64,000 nucleotides of DNA from Polaromonas sp. C04. Its GTDB lineage: Bacteria; Pseudomonadota; Gammaproteobacteria; Burkholderiales; Burkholderiaceae_C. Position numbers and translations under genes: made by a program. The stretch lies in assembly GCF_002002705.1 (NCBI RefSeq), contig NZ_MUNS01000023.1, positions 1 through 64,000 on the forward strand, given 5' to 3'. Positions 1,045 to 8,229 of this stretch are shown in pieces. The notes under the pieces were generated by a model. It did not search any database. It worked only from the letters and a program-made list of their open reading frames with translations, and had not been told where the DNA came from. The first letter of the stretch is position 1. Each line of letters starts with the position of its first letter.

Positions 1045-1059
1045 CTGGCGGAGCAGGCG
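1045..1059. other. attL, left copy of the 15-bp core
   Basis: The sequence CTGGCGGAGCAGGCG is identical to the end of the tRNA-Ser gene at 6498-6512. It is followed by 145 bp of AT-richer DNA before the integrase gene, where arm-type integrase sites would be expected. Confidence 0.8.
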
Positions 1060-1204: not shown

Positions 1205-2443
1205 ATGGGACGAAAAGTAGAGAGATTGAACGCCCTGCAGGTGGCAAAGCTGACCAAGCCGGGCTATTACTGCGACGGGGCCGGGCTGTACCTTCAAGTG
1301 AGCCCCACGGGCTCTAAAAGCTGGATATTGCGCTACGTCCTGGCCGGCAAGCCGCGAGAGATGGGCCTAGGTTCGTTCGTGACGTTCACCCTGGCCGATG
1401 CCCGACAACGTGCCAGAGAAAAGCGCCAGCTACTGGCAGACGGGGTTGACCCTATCGAGGCGCGCCGCACGGTCATTCTGCAAAAGCGCATGGCTGATGC
1501 CAGCATCATCACGTTCGACAAAGCCGCCGCCGCCTTCATTGAAGGCAATAGCCCCGGATGGCGCAACGCGAAACACGGCGAACAGTGGCGCAGCACACTT
1601 GCGACCTACGCGAGTCCAGTGATCGGCAATCTGCCCGTGTCTGAGGTCAACACCGCCCTGGTGCTGCGCATCCTGCAGCCGATCTGGTCAACCAAGAATG
1701 AGACAGCAACCCGCGTGCGCGGCCGCATCGAAAAGATTCTCGACTGGGCAAAGGTGCAACGGTTCCGCGCTGGCGACAATCCCGCCGCATGGCGTGGGCA
1801 CTTGTCCGAAGTGCTGCCCAAGCCGTCCAAGGTGGCAAAGGCCGGGCACCATGCCGCGCTGCCGTGGGCAGACGTGGGCGCATTCATGCAGGAGCTGCGG
1901 GCCATGCAAGGCGCGGGCGCGCTGGCGATGGAGCTAATCATCCTGACCGCGACTCGCACAAGCGAAGTGCTGAACGCGACGTGGGCAGAGTTTGACCTTG
2001 ATGCGGGCGTGTGGACTATCCCGCCGCAACGCATGAAAGGGTTCCGGGAGCATCGCGTCCCCTTGTCGGCTGCTGCGCTGGCCGCGCTGGAAAAGGCCAA
2101 AGCAGAATCGAATGGATCTGAATTTGTTTTCCCCGGCAAGCCGGGCCGCGCCGTGTCCAACATGATCTGCCTTGCGACCTTGAAGCGCATGGACAGGGCA
2201 GACCTGACGGTCCACGGGTTCCGCTCGACGTTCCGCGATTGGTGCGCAGAGTCCACGGCATACCCGCGCGACGTGGCAGAGATGGCGCTGGCCCATGCGG
2301 TAGAAGACAAGTCCGAAGCCGCGTACCGGCGCGGCGATCTGCTGGAAAAGCGCCGGGCACTCATGAGCGACTGGGCAGAGTTTTGCGGCAAGGTTCGCAC
2401 TGGTGGCGACGTGGTGGCGATTCGTTCAAAGGTGGCCGCATGA
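1205..2443 (+). CDS. int: P4-type tyrosine integrase
   Basis: A 412-residue site-specific recombinase. The N-terminus has the arm-binding domain of P4-like integrases (YCDGAGLYLQV, then SWILRY). The catalytic set is complete: Arg251 in TATRTSEVL, His337 and Arg340 in HGFRS, His364 in MALAHA, and nucleophile Tyr374. It should integrate and excise the surrounding element at the tRNA-Ser 3' end. The ATG at 1205 is preferred because AAAGG lies nine bases upstream; an in-frame GTG at 1184 is an alternative. The stop overlaps the next ATG. The gene reads inward from the left end, distal to the tRNA, which is less common than tRNA-proximal placement but equivalent in the circular form. Confidence 0.95.
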   Translation: MGRKVERLNALQVAKLTKPGYYCDGAGLYLQVSPTGSKSWILRYVLAGKPREMGLGSFVTFTLADARQRAREKRQLLADGVDPIEARRTVILQKRMADASIITFDKAAAAFIEGNSPGWRNAKHGEQWRSTLATYASPVIGNLPVSEVNTALVLRILQPIWSTKNETATRVRGRIEKILDWAKVQRFRAGDNPAAWRGHLSEVLPKPSKVAKAGHHAALPWADVGAFMQELRAMQGAGALAMELIILTATRTSEVLNATWAEFDLDAGVWTIPPQRMKGFREHRVPLSAAALAALEKAKAESNGSEFVFPGKPGRAVSNMICLATLKRMDRADLTVHGFRSTFRDWCAESTAYPRDVAEMALAHAVEDKSEAAYRRGDLLEKRRALMSDWAEFCGKVRTGGDVVAIRSKVAA

Positions 2444-2942: not shown

Positions 2943-2974
2943 CATTGGGCCTTCAATCCTGAAAGGCCCCAATG
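2943..2974 (+). promoter_or_regulatory. Hairpin covering the RBS and start codon of the AlpA-like gene
   Basis: Bases 2943-2953 (CATTGGGCCTT) pair with 2963-2974 (AAGGCCCCAATG), giving an 11-bp stem with one bulged C and a 9-base loop. The 3' arm contains most of the Shine-Dalgarno-like AAAGG and the ATG of the next gene. In RNA this would hide the ribosome site. The pairing is directly visible; a regulatory role is inferred. Confidence 0.55.
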
Positions 2975-3187
2975 AAGACCGATGTAAGCCACTTCGACCA
3001 ATTGCCCGATGCGGCATTGGTTCCCGTCAAAGCGTTTAGCGCCGTCATGGATGCCGGCGATTCCACGATCTGGCGACGTGCGAAAACCGAGCCCGATTTT
3101 CCCCAGCCGATTCGCCTGGGCACCAAGTGCACGCGCTGGAAAGTGGGCGACATTCGCGCCTTCATTGCTGCGAGGGCTGCAGCATGA
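2972..3187 (+). CDS. AlpA-family regulator / excisionase-like protein
   Basis: A 71-residue winged-helix DNA-binding protein of the AlpA/MerR-like type used by P4-type elements. It shows the usual pattern: a helix-turn-helix around STIWRRAKTEPDFPQPIRLG followed by RWKVGDIRAFIAARAAA. Such proteins activate int and act as directionality factors for excision. It is the first gene of a chain with ATGA overlaps. Its start codon lies inside a stable hairpin (2943-2974), so translation may be conditional. Family assignment is confident; the excision role here is inferred. Confidence 0.88.
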   Translation: MKTDVSHFDQLPDAALVPVKAFSAVMDAGDSTIWRRAKTEPDFPQPIRLGTKCTRWKVGDIRAFIAARAAA

Positions 3188-3381
3188 TTGACAGCGAAGC
3201 CGAACAGCGCCGCACCGACCGGGCGATTAAAGCCATGATTGCCCGATTCGACGTGGCCGGGCATCTTGTCCGCCGTGGCCCAGCGGGCGACTTCATGGTG
3301 TTCCGCATGGGCGTGCGCCAGTATTGCCGCGACTTCGAGGCGCTTCAAGCCCACGCCCGCGAATGCGAGGTGACGGAATGA
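3184..3381 (+). CDS. Hypothetical small protein
   Basis: A 65-residue protein with no recognised domain. The ATG at 3184 overlaps the stop of the AlpA-like gene, and its own stop overlaps the next start, so it belongs to the same translationally coupled operon. The sequence is charged and probably helical, with an N-terminal run of acidic and basic residues. No function can be assigned. Confidence 0.65.
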   Translation: MIDSEAEQRRTDRAIKAMIARFDVAGHLVRRGPAGDFMVFRMGVRQYCRDFEALQAHARECEVTE

Positions 3382-3713
3382 CCGCCGCCAATGACAAAGG
3401 GCCTGGACGGCAATCCAAGCCCTTCGATAAAAACACTACCACCGCCCGCAAGTTTAGCGCGAAGTCCACCGCGACGGAAGCGCAATACGAACGCATCGTT
3501 CGCATGTTGCGCATCGGCGAACGTTCAACCTTTGATTTTCGCAAGGCCGGGATTATGGCCCCGGCTGCACGCATCAAGGAATTGAACGACAAGCACGGGT
3601 TCTACATCCCCACGGTGGCGCTGCGCGATCTCTGGGACGAAGAAGGTTTCTGCCATCCCCGCGTGGCCGTCTATTCCCTGGTTGATGAGCCTGCCAATGG
3701 CGAACGGACGTAA
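3378..3713 (+). CDS. Helix-turn-helix domain protein
   Basis: A 111-residue protein. The first 35 residues are polar and disordered. Residues about 36-105 look like a winged helix of the type found in phage and satellite replication or regulation genes: a helical segment (YERIVRMLRIG), a helix-turn-helix around IMAPAARIKELNDK, then a strand ending in VAVYSLV. It overlaps its upstream and downstream neighbours. A DNA-binding role is likely; the target is unknown. Confidence 0.7.
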   Translation: MTAANDKGPGRQSKPFDKNTTTARKFSAKSTATEAQYERIVRMLRIGERSTFDFRKAGIMAPAARIKELNDKHGFYIPTVALRDLWDEEGFCHPRVAVYSLVDEPANGERT

Positions 3714-4395
3714 TCGCGGCAAAGGCGATTCTGGGCGCGATTCGGGCGGGTTTGTAGCTCTGCCCTGGTCGGTGCTCGATTGCCCCGCCTACGCCCGTTT
3801 ATCCATGCACGCGCGGGCTTTGCTGCTGGAGGTGGCTCGCCAGTTCGTGCGCGACAACAACGGGCGCATGTTGCTGTCGCGTGCCTACATGGCAACACGG
3901 GGCTGGAAGTCGGCTGACATGCTTGCCAAAGCAAAGCGCGAACTGATCGAAGGCGGGTTCATATTCGAGACCGTGAAAGGCCATCGGCCCAACAAGGCCA
4001 GTTGGTACGCCTGCACCTGGCGAACCCTCGACAGGTTGCCCGGCTATGACATCGGCGCGGCTGAGAGTTTCGAGCGTGGCGCGTACCAAAAAGCCGCACC
4101 ACTGAAAAACGCAAGCCTTATACCGCCCCACGGTACAGAGAGGCCGTCTATTGCACCGCCCCACGGTACAGAGACACCGCCCACTGTACCGCCCCACGGT
4201 GCTATCAGGCCTGTTTTGGGGGGTCTCTCTGTACCGCCCCACGGACACCATCTAGAGAAGCCATCTGCTGGTGTTCGGAGCCCGGCTATTCCTGACTCAC
4301 TGAGCCCGGAAACAAAAGCGGCATTTTTGGGGAAAACCCAAAAGCGGCCATCAGCAAAAACGAGCGCAACGGAGTCATGTTCCGCCAATGCGTGA
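3697..4395 (+). CDS. Probable replication initiator (winged-helix) with internal repeat tract
   Basis: A 232-residue protein. Residues about 20-115 form a conserved helical, winged-helix-like domain (ALPWSVLDCPAYARLS, then LLSRAYMATRGWKS, then GHRPNKASWYACTW). I recall this arrangement from small integrative elements of proteobacteria, where it is placed at the replication-gene position. The C-terminal 90 residues are low-complexity and contain four PPHG units encoded by near-identical DNA with dyad symmetry (4122-4244). That resembles an origin embedded in its initiator gene. The ATG at 3697 overlaps the upstream gene. The replication role is inferred from position and repeats and has not been shown by homology search. 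Confidence 0.6.
   Translation: MANGRNRGKGDSGRDSGGFVALPWSVLDCPAYARLSMHARALLLEVARQFVRDNNGRMLLSRAYMATRGWKSADMLAKAKRELIEGGFIFETVKGHRPNKASWYACTWRTLDRLPGYDIGAAESFERGAYQKAAPLKNASLIPPHGTERPSIAPPHGTETPPTVPPHGAIRPVLGGLSVPPHGHHLEKPSAGVRSPAIPDSLSPETKAAFLGKTQKRPSAKTSATESCSANA
4122..4244 (+). repeat. Four iteron-like 12-mers ACCGCCCCACGG
   Basis: Exact copies of ACCGCCCCACGG start at 4122, 4155, 4188 and 4233 (spacings 33, 33 and 45 bp, about three to four helical turns). Three copies are followed by T, so those have symmetrical ACCG/CGGT ends. The second ends of copies 1 and 2 share the longer context CGGTACAGAG. All lie in frame inside the putative initiator gene and encode PPHG. They could be origin iterons or only a peptide repeat. 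Confidence 0.7.
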
Positions 4396-4616: not shown

Positions 4617-5417
4617 ATGACCTACATTGATCCCCGTCTCCAAGCAATCGTAAAAATTACCAACCCGGACCCGACCGGCAAACCCCTTATCGCGGGAGCC
4701 TGGCGCGGCCAGAAAGCCGGCCCGCTTCATGGCGTCTTGTCCGAGACCGTGCGCACCAGCGAGGCCATGCTGCGATCCGCTCACGACATTCGCCAGAGCC
4801 GGCACTATGGCCCGGCTGAGATGGGTCAACGCCTGCGCGAAGTCGCTGGGCCGACCCTGGTAGCACTCAACGCCGCGACTGCAAAGTTGAAGGCGCAAAA
4901 AGAGTCTGTCCGCGCTCAGGTCTCAATGTTGAACCCCGTGAAAAATTACAAAGACTGCGGCCACTGGCAAGCGACCCATGATTTACGCCTGATCGACTGG
5001 CTTGCCGCGCTGCCGGCGGGCAAGCGTGCCGGCGTCCTTCACGAAATGCGCGAGATGCCGCTGGTGCGGCTGGAATTGGCCGAGGCGTTGCTGCGCGTGC
5101 CGCGTGAAATTTGCGGCATCCCCGACGACCTGCGCGCAGAAATCAAGCTTGGGCTCATCAAGGCGCAAAAACCCGCTGAGTTCGAGATGCTCGATACGCA
5201 ACTGGACCAACTCAAAACGACTGAGCGGGCGCTGCGCCTGGCCGTCGATGCGACGCGGGAAACCGTCGGCCTGTCAGACATCCACACACTCGCGCCCGAT
5301 GCACTGGCATTCAGCATGGCCGCTGAAGATCCCGTGGCCTGGCTGGAGCCCAAACCGCGTCAGGATGTGAACTTCACGCCAGCGTCAGCCCCTGCACCGG
5401 CACCCGCTGGCGAGTAA
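4617..5417 (+). CDS. Hypothetical element protein, 266 residues
   Basis: The largest cargo-type protein of the element. It is soluble, without signal peptide or membrane segments, and is largely helical. Residues about 85-105 and 195-225 look like coiled coils (TAKLKAQKESVRAQ; DTQLDQLKTTERALRL). The C-terminus ends in a Pro/Ala-rich tail. The ATG at 4617 has GAAAGG upstream; longer in-frame extension would cross the 51-residue gene. I do not recognise a family, and no enzymatic motif is visible. A structural or DNA-transaction role is possible but unsupported. Confidence 0.75.
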   Translation: MTYIDPRLQAIVKITNPDPTGKPLIAGAWRGQKAGPLHGVLSETVRTSEAMLRSAHDIRQSRHYGPAEMGQRLREVAGPTLVALNAATAKLKAQKESVRAQVSMLNPVKNYKDCGHWQATHDLRLIDWLAALPAGKRAGVLHEMREMPLVRLELAEALLRVPREICGIPDDLRAEIKLGLIKAQKPAEFEMLDTQLDQLKTTERALRLAVDATRETVGLSDIHTLAPDALAFSMAAEDPVAWLEPKPRQDVNFTPASAPAPAPAGE

Positions 5418-6195: not shown

Positions 6196-6227
6196 GCGTC
6201 CGGCAACGCACCTGTTACGCCACCTGC

Positions 6228-6256
6228 AACGGACGTTCAACGGACGTTCAACGGAC
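6228..6256. repeat. Tandem 11-bp repeat AACGGACGTTC near attR
   Basis: Two complete copies (6228-6238, 6239-6249) and a partial third (6250-6256) are arranged head to tail with an 11-bp period, one helical turn. AACGGACGTT is close to a self-complementary AACG..CGTT motif. The position, 250 bp from the attachment core, suits accessory protein or integrase binding, but this is inference. Confidence 0.6.
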
Positions 6257-6379
6257 CCGCAACGCGAACAGGCAATTTCAGGTAACGCACAGCGAACGGC
6301 AATAGTGCAACGCTCGCACTCGCCATCAGCTGCTCGCAAGTGCTGCGCAGCCGAAACCCAGTGGGTTACGTCGCCGGCA

Positions 6380-6420
6380 ACGGTTCGTGCACGGTTCGTG
6401 CACGGTTCGTGCACGGTTCA
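6380..6420. repeat. Tandem 11-bp repeat ACGGTTCGTGC near attR
   Basis: Three complete copies (6380-6390, 6391-6401, 6402-6412) and eight bases of a fourth (6413-6420) form a perfect tandem array with helical periodicity. It lies 78 bp from the attR core in a stretch without genes (6196-6497). Likely candidates are arm-type integrase or AlpA/Xis binding sites. Confidence 0.65.
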
Positions 6421-6497
6421 CCTTGAGCCCTGCGGCATGGGCTAAAACGTGGGTAGATTCGCTTGATGGGCTGGGAACCCGCATGAATGCTATGTAT

Positions 6498-6512
6498 CTG
6501 GCGGAGCAGGCG
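6498..6512. other. attR, right copy of the 15-bp core within tRNA-Ser
   Basis: CTGGCGGAGCAGGCG covers the encoded CCA end and part of the acceptor and T-arm of tRNA-Ser, and is identical to 1045-1059. The tRNA stays intact on this side. Confidence 0.82.
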
Positions 6513-6588
6513 GGATTCGAACCCGCGGAGGGTTTTACCCCTCACACGCTTTCCAGGCGTGCGACTTAAACCACTCATCCACCGCTCC
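6499..6588 (-). tRNA. tRNA-Ser (anticodon GGA)
   Basis: A 90-base type II tRNA. On the minus strand the acceptor GGAGCGG pairs with CTGCTCC, followed by discriminator G and encoded CCA. The D-arm is GGATGAGTGGTTTAAGTC. The anticodon loop CTGGAAA gives GGA (6554-6552). There is a long variable arm (GTGAGGGGTAAAACCCTCC region) and a T-loop GGTTCGAATCC. It reads serine UCC/UCU codons. Its 3' end is the integration site of the adjacent element. Confidence 0.96.
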
Positions 6589-7664: not shown

Positions 7665-8090
7665 TCAGATTTTGTCGACTAGCAGGCGGCTGCCAATCAC
7701 TTCGGCCACGCGGTGCGGCCCGCTGGAGGGCGGATTGCCGGGGCGATGCATGACGGTCCAGTTGGCGCCGCGGTATTTCACCGTGGCCGTGCCGTCGGGA
7801 TTCCAGGATTCGACGTTGACCGTTTCGCCGATGTCCAGATTGACATCGCGGTTGGTGCTGGCGGACGCGGCGGCGGGGTGCCGGCCCCGAATGAAATACC
7901 AGGCCACGACGGCGCCACCGCCGACCACGGCGGCCACCAGCAGTTGCGTGACCGTGCTGGCGCCCAGTTGCGCCGCCACAGCGGCCGCGGCCAGCCCTAT
8001 GGCGAGCATCAGCAGGTAAAAGGTGCCCGTCGTCAGCTCCACGACGATTGCAATGCCCGCGAGCAGCCACCAAATGGTTGATTCAGCCAT
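7665..8090 (-). CDS. NfeD-family membrane protein (short, YbbJ-like)
   Basis: A 141-residue protein with two or three N-terminal membrane helices (about residues 5-70) and a C-terminal OB-fold of the NfeD type (about 80-140; GETVNVESWNPDGTATVKYRGANW). It is the partner of the downstream paraslipin and is expected to form a complex with it in the inner membrane. This is the short form lacking the N-terminal serine protease. ATG at 8090 is chosen because the membrane domain begins there. The gene is divergent from the decarboxylase gene at 8230. Confidence 0.9.
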   Translation of the reverse strand: MAESTIWWLLAGIAIVVELTTGTFYLLMLAIGLAAAAVAAQLGASTVTQLLVAAVVGGGAVVAWYFIRGRHPAAASASTNRDVNLDIGETVNVESWNPDGTATVKYRGANWTVMHRPGNPPSSGPHRVAEVIGSRLLVDKI

Positions 8091-8229
8091 GTTTCCCGCT
8101 TCTCCATTGTGTTGCCTGAGACACATTTTGAGGCAAAAGGGGGCTTCGCAAGAGCGCGGACACTTTAATTCCTTACACTTCGCGCTGGCTGGTTTTTTCT
8201 GTTTCCCATTCACTGGCGCCGAGGCCTGC

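Follow-up and report, generated by a model that had tools for sequence, protein, structure and literature searches.

Four phased dyad repeats at the end of a winged-helix gene as the probable replication origin of a Polaromonas integrative element

Initiator genes which contain their own origin of replication are already known. The available portions of the published accounts describe the N-terminal domain of pSK41 Rep as binding four boxes located centrally in rep, where the origin codes for a linker (PMC5703833). In phage lambda they likewise place four iterons, each an inverted repeat occupied by an O dimer, in the gene of the initiator O, with an AT-rich region adjoining (PMC6022878, PMC7466680). 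PLE, a phage satellite of Vibrio cholerae, is described as having a RepA_N-like initiator and semi-palindromic iterons (PMC7145576, PMC8263062). In the part of their report available, Netter et al. state that the DNA-binding domain of PLE RepA covaries with the origin and that the phage nuclease Odn cuts only with the iterons (PMC8263062).

The window analyzed here is a stretch of 64,000 nucleotides from Polaromonas sp. C04 (contig NZ_MUNS01000023.1). It carries an array of repeats which, with a probability of about 0.8, represents the four iterons of a replication origin situated inside and just behind its own initiator gene on a 5.5-kb integrative element.

The integrated element and its repeats

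The element is integrated at a tRNA-Ser gene and is bounded by a 15-bp direct repeat, CTGGCGGAGCAGGCG (Table 1). Homology to the right flank begins at 6495-6498 in four congeners and at 6485 in a fifth; the left side of the congeners did not match the left flank of the window, though the right flank is common, and no empty site was seen. The size of 5.5 kb, the integration at a tRNA gene, the integrase and the weak AlpA match are consistent with a PICI/PICMI/PLE-like phage satellite, which the element possibly is, as is the occurrence of relatives in 43 of 399 genomes but in one of 50,697 phage records. No helicase, loader or primase was recognized among the nine element ORFs scanned. A role as a defense system was rejected, with no PADLOC match at E 0.1 for the eight element proteins scanned, as was a role of the array as attachment or excisionase sites, the array lying more than 2 kb from both att cores.

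Several further features were observed at the element ends. A 12-bp direct repeat, AACGTGGGTAGA, is present inside both ends near the att cores (1181-1192 and 6446-6457) and may represent arm-type integrase sites. Short tandem repeats, ACGGACGTTCA and CGGTTCGTGCA, occur near the right end at 6227-6262 and 6380-6420. Just outside the element, on the minus strand at 212-834, two overlapping small ORFs have translations that are similar to a toxin of the RelE/HigB type and to an HTH antitoxin.

Table 1. Coordinates of features of the integrated element and its repeat array in the window
Feature	Position	Strand	Remarks
Left attachment core CTGGCGGAGCAGGCG	1045..1059	.	15-bp direct repeat of 6498-6512
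Tyrosine integrase	1205..2443	+	Pfam: Arm-DNA-bind_3, Phage_int_M, Phage_integrase
AlpA/excisionase-like small protein	2972..3187	+	Weak match, under Pfam cut-off
Winged-helix HTH_39 protein	3378..3713	+	Overlaps initiator gene; cluster members in 11/26 loci compared
Putative replication initiator, 232 aa	3697..4395	+	Winged-helix domain residues 1-135 and unconserved tail
Codons of predicted recognition helix, residues 73-85	3913..3951	+	AlphaFold model; residues 73-78 associated with half-site
Iteron 1	4118..4138	+	Dyad, strong half right
Iteron 2	4151..4171	+	Dyad, strong half right
Iteron 3	4184..4204	+	Dyad, strong half left
TTTT in iteron 3-iteron 4 spacer	4214..4217	+	
Iteron 4	4229..4249	+	Strong half left, right half degenerate
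Conserved box ACACCATCTAGAGAAGCCATCT	4245..4266	+	Candidate opening or loading site
266-aa protein, no assigned function	4617..5417	+	Downstream of array
Right attachment core	6498..6512	.	At 3' end of tRNA-Ser(GGA) 6499-6588

As reported by a first-pass annotation, four exact copies of ACCGCCCCACGG are found on the plus strand (4122-4133, 4155-4166, 4188-4199 and 4233-4244), spaced by 33/33/45 bp and in frame within ORF 3697-4395; the ACCG/CGGT symmetry which it ascribed to three of the repeats is correct for copies 1-3. In the genome (4.17 Mb, both strands) the 12-mer has five exact copies, four of them in the array, and the reversed pattern occurs once. With up to two mismatches allowed, the 14 matches in the window are at chance level (14.8 expected), and it is therefore the exactness and clustering of the 12-mer that count. 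The full repeat unit is a 21-bp dyad, CTGTACCG-CCCCA-CGGTACAG, of which the 12-mer forms just the core. Every copy of the dyad in the window has one perfect and one weaker half-site, with the right half perfect and the left half at 6/8 in copies 1 and 2, and the left half perfect and the right half at 5/8 and 3/8 in copies 3 and 4, respectively.

The box behind iteron 4 is the sole copy within two mismatches in its own genome. The AT content behind iteron 4 is 0.52 (31 nt) vs. 0.39 for the element, and no strongly AT-rich stretch was found there in the window.

Conservation of the array among relatives

Relatives were found in 43 of 399 related genomes, at 21 loci in a species-genome collection and at 39 loci in viral contigs, and many loci come from metagenome assemblies. 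Matches to profile A1 were obtained in 49/399 genomes from the family, 34/399 from the order and 23/369 from the class (the sets overlap). Three queries each matched a single one of 50,697 phage records, in all cases Pseudomonas phage vB_Pae_U1, whose initiator gene is annotated as replication protein O; plasmid records were matched once with one query and twice with another. Phage vB_Pae_U1 (PP003913.1, L056) is only 16.2 kb and no structural gene is named among the 18 of its 26 features shown, which suggests that it is a satellite. A phage capsid gene (L040:6341-7588) and a PriCT_2/AAA_25 primase-helicase gene (L051:2277-4484) were each observed at a locus with this replicon, which may therefore occupy more than one element type. 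At a Variovorax locus the initiator domain is present twice (L053:4989-5441 and 7748-8128), the second time without recognizable iterons or box.

The search gave 147 domain hits, of which 146, representing 141 loci, had enough flanking sequence. In 106 of these 146 hits the repeat family scored above all 438 shuffles, which preserve base composition only, as do the box shuffles, and 40 were at or under the shuffle maximum. Twenty of these 40 (domain score of at least 120) were viewed by eye, and the box was kept in 16, often with recognizable sites; it was not seen in L018, L024, L026.0 and L053.1. As many loci are related, neither these nor the following counts of loci and pairs are independent, and simple null models were used.

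Comparison of homologues, which the first-pass annotation had proposed as a check, gave an answer in favor of DNA. Among 105 loci (score above 10, at least three copies), four had no identifiable last repeat; in 49 of the remaining 101 the entire last repeat is located behind the stop codon, in 51 it is contained in the ORF and in a single locus it spans the stop. In 56/105 loci one or more of the detected copies lie partly or fully outside the ORF, a count which spurious extra copies may inflate. In L047, L004 and L053 the ORF departs from the PPHG frame and terminates, and the DNA repeats remain at 33/33/45. The encoded peptide also varies with the half-site (PPHG, PSHG, PSPG, TSPV). As homologues retain the DNA array while the peptide changes, shifts frame or lies past the stop, the array is regarded as a feature of the DNA.

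Codon positions were compared in 61 close pairs from 35 loci which are coding throughout. Differences at positions 1/2/3 amounted to 0.168/0.107/0.475 for the domain and 0.183/0.220/0.180 for the repeats; the linkers that separate the repeats gave 0.414/0.429/0.498. These figures indicate ordinary protein selection on the domain, hardly any on the linkers, and maintenance of the repeats at the level of DNA. The window has its four dyads inside ORF 3697-4395, and this nearly flat pattern of the intervening segments agrees with the RepA_N type, in which several boxes in the rep gene code for a linker.

Selection on a PPHG peptide, with the DNA repeat secondary, would fit the in-frame position of the copies in the window; in addition, of the 49 loci with every detected copy coding, 39 have only spacings divisible by three. 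However, third codon positions in the repeats vary as little as the first and second, copies survive out of frame or past the stop, the peptide shifts with the half-site, and the dyad symmetry has no peptide reason. Peptide-level selection was therefore rejected and is almost certainly not the explanation, and the earlier suggestion that the PPHG repeats are a by-product is supported.

Half-sites of the main group read CT[AG]xyzCG, where xyz is TAC, CAC, TTC, GTC, CTA, GAC or others. Repeat sequence varies between loci but is mostly common to the copies within a locus, with an identity in xyz of 0.78 between copies of one locus vs. 0.51 between loci, and the copies are dyads whose complementary arms vary together. 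Such concerted change of the arms would also be expected of hairpins, whether as an RNA attenuator or in single-stranded DNA, rather than of protein sites. Pairing, however, does not need an arm sequence common to the copies of a locus, and it explains neither the helical phasing nor the association with a protein helix (see below). Hairpin formation was rejected as a sufficient function on the basis of the shared arm sequence, and hairpins in place of protein sites are considered highly improbable.

Among 46 loci spaced 33/33/45, the numbers with the outer CT[AG] in the left/right half were 2/37 for copy 1, 1/45 for copy 2, 41/0 for copy 3 and 43/0 for copy 4, so that the strong half-sites point to the middle of the array. 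The helical phasing claimed by the first-pass annotation is loose within the window alone, 33 and 45 bp being 3.1 and 4.3 turns of 10.5 bp, but is clear across divergent relatives. Spacings in divergent arrays (domain score below 175, a set which includes two fragments of the main group, L054 and L055) have a period of 10.4-10.5 bp with R 0.77 (176 spacings), vs. at most 0.27 in 2000 draws from a uniform null. Typical sets are 32/33/44, 32/43/44, 22/43/44, 22/53/44 and 23/74/34.

The last iteron is followed in 49 main-group loci by a box, ACCATCTAGAgAtgCCATCT, of which 15 of 20 positions are conserved at 80-97%. Conservation of the ungapped columns is far lower in 52 divergent loci (acctt..ta.a..t.cc, at most 69% at any position), partly because parts of the box shift by 1-2 bases. 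A regular expression for the box matched at a fixed distance behind a detected iteron in 77/105 loci; this expression is permissive, matching 105/146 regions but also 38/146 when reversed and about 15 in shuffles. TTTT was found in the iteron 3-iteron 4 spacer of 62/101 loci, vs. 13/166 other spacers, and AAAA in 8 and 17 of the same spacers, respectively. The AT content of the 20 nt from the iteron-4 center is 0.53 vs. a mean of 0.45 (101 loci), and the box is only mildly AT-rich.

The encoded protein and its recognition helix

The protein from the window has no Pfam match at E 0.1, and its PHROG matches, to replication initiation proteins, are weak (E 0.0027 and 0.057, the latter to the O-like phrog_678). 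Among 123 aligned members of the family, matches at E 0.001 were obtained to PHROGs 270 (30 members) and 428 (17), both replication initiation proteins, to PHROG 186, a DnaD-like helicase loader (16), and to phrog_678 (15). The PHROG matches of members are thus mostly initiators, O-like proteins and DnaD-like loaders. At E 0.01 the 123 members gave no Pfam O-protein match, and RepA_N (PF06970) is absent from the 13 Pfam families listed for them; the family is therefore set apart from RepA_N. MarR and MarR_2 profiles were matched by six members each and GntR by three.

When the family profile was compared with the PDB, RepA N-domains were the top four sequence matches (4pta at E 1.7e-5; 5kbj, 4pql and 4pt7 near 0.002). 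The domain is predicted with a pLDDT of 92.3, and RepA entries were also the top three of 1000 re-aligned folds, with Z scores of 8.1, 7.9 and 7.2 for 4pql, 4pt7 and 5kbj; other winged helices score about 7, and a Z of 8.1 falls inside the range reached by common winged-helix folds. Foldseek gave no PDB match under 0.001. The tail of the initiator is unconserved and is missing in some homologues. Confidence in the full-length AlphaFold model is low over its whole length (mean 58; parts of the domain are also poor with 26 rows), and for this reason the model is only weak evidence for an unstructured tail.

Association between the protein and the xyz triplet was examined in 60 loci and in 48 close loci. 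The 60-locus set, in which dyads were centered on their arms only and hits with a family score below 9 were not entered, omits L068, L022, L133 and L074 (domain score of at least 140), which failed the dyad rules, although L022 has visible repeats. In the close set, for which column p-values are descriptive, residues 73-78 (five testable columns) had a mean z of 4.6 with the triplet vs. 0.70 for other columns, and the top four columns were 75, 77, 76 and 65, the last being outside the helix. In the 60-locus set column 73 came first and columns 48, 65, 103 and 28 scored too; in the identity-stratified list of the same loci, columns 48, 103 and 28 are ahead of 77. These near-invariant columns are provisionally taken as deep-clade effects in the wider set. 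Leave-one-out prediction of the triplet from the nearest neighbor succeeded at 0.53 with helix 73-85, 0.42 with residues 60-68 and 0.34 with the rest, vs. 0.32 for the majority triplet; with neighbors below 70% identity the values were 0.46 for the helix vs. 0.25 for the rest of the domain.

Glutamine at position 77 is found in 6/60 loci, all with TTC, and TTC in 7/60, the seventh locus having D77. On a tree built without residues 60-86, six changes are needed for Q77 and seven for TTC. This tree is poorly resolved, with only three starred branches; no more than one or two supported pairs were therefore available for an independent-pairs test, which has no power and did not reach significance. 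Exceptions to the correspondence are VITR with GCC (L063), TITR with GTC (L113) and VVTR with TAC (L065). The proteins of L013 and L014 are near-identical outside the helix region, and the DNA differences between the two loci cluster at codons 61-80 and within the array of repeats, the 3' end behind iteron 4 as far as the stop being the same. The half-sites of L014 are a mixture of CACCG and CTACG, and this locus looks like a half-changed intermediate.

Which half-site a locus carries is thus associated, though with exceptions, with the recognition helix of its winged-helix protein. This covariation indicates the encoded protein as the binder of the array, and on sequence grounds it is well supported that the array would be bound by its own protein. 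The joint change of the repeats and the DNA-reading helix among relatives gives the repeats the appearance of a site where replication starts, not of a motif of the protein.

A repressor would predict the same covariation and dyads, and the array could then be an operator through which the winged-helix protein controls downstream genes or its own mRNA, with the box as part of a promoter. The MarR, MarR_2 and GntR matches and the position of the array before the next gene agree with this. Four phased sites at the end of a protein's own gene would nevertheless be unusual for an operator, initiators come first among the profile and fold neighbors, and the precedents of pSK41, lambda and PLE are origins, so that regulation is judged unlikely. 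Winged-helix proteins on iteron arrays are also known in plasmid partition, in the TubR/tubC system, and the array might accordingly be a centromere-like mark to which the protein binds for partition or packaging. However, initiator matches predominate and no partner NTPase was recognized in the element of the window, and a mark of this kind appears quite improbable.

The candidate origin and its known counterparts

The array instead probably acts as a replication origin, a reading which is favored because the protein is RepA/O-like and because of the pSK41, lambda and PLE precedents. In the mechanism that we infer, the winged-helix protein would occupy every 21-bp dyad as a dimer, through helix 73-85, and the four phased dimers, on dyads whose strong half-sites are turned inward, would together form a nucleoprotein complex in the manner of lambda O or pSK41 Rep. 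This complex would open the DNA at or beside the conserved box after iteron 4 and bring in a helicase of the host or of a helper phage. The PPHG peptide would be the translated iterons and a linker at most.

A broader proposal is offered tentatively and is somewhat more likely to fail than to stand. The locus would belong to a mostly unrecognized replicon family, found mainly on proteobacterial integrative elements and satellites, with an initiator consisting of little more than the DNA-binding domain and a mirror-symmetric, helically phased four-dyad origin in or behind its own gene. The identity of the origin would switch when as many as eight half-sites change jointly with one recognition helix, yielding compatible replicons, and the box (ACCATCTAGAgAtgCCATCT in the group of the window) would be read by a host or helper factor. 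Nucleases which target origins in the manner of Odn may be drivers, and it is possible that attack by such a nuclease drives the half-site switching seen here.

Among the matches listed in the literature searched, no paper was recognized on this proteobacterial family, on the inward-facing phased array, on the box or on the helix/half-site correspondence. If the reading is true, the family provides dozens of naturally occurring origin/initiator pairs which form a series differing in a few helix residues and one triplet, and the joint specificity change of an initiator and four to eight half-sites, with replication retained, therefore becomes directly testable. Phased dyads together with the box would be a signature for locating the origins of small integrative elements, and an origin could run through a coding region with the protein paying little.

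In the available text on PICI and PICMI (PMC6092414, PMC10803314), the PICI origin lies directly 3' of rep, and PICMI, with an integrase, AlpA and 6.1 kb, also resembles the element described here. PICIs differ in having two iteron sets around an AT-rich region and Pri-Rep, and PICMI in carrying a primase, whereas neither Pri-Rep nor a primase was recognized in the element of the window. PLE differs in that, in the portions of the accounts available, its iterons are noncoding and the C-terminal domain is conserved among PLEs (PMC7145576, PMC8263062). As in lambda O, four dyad iterons lie inside the gene, and some members match O-like PHROGs; the spacing of 33/33/45, the only mildly AT-rich box and the fact that a P-like partner was not recognized in the window are differences. 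RepA_N replicons are unlike this one in that most are plasmids of Gram-positive bacteria and in that their C-terminal domain is a separate one, whereas in the family of the window the tail is unconserved or absent and the array may extend past the gene. In the part of the description available, however, the RepA_N replicons pSK41 and pTZ2162 share with it a winged-helix N-domain of about 120 residues and four in-gene boxes which code only for linker (PMC5703833).
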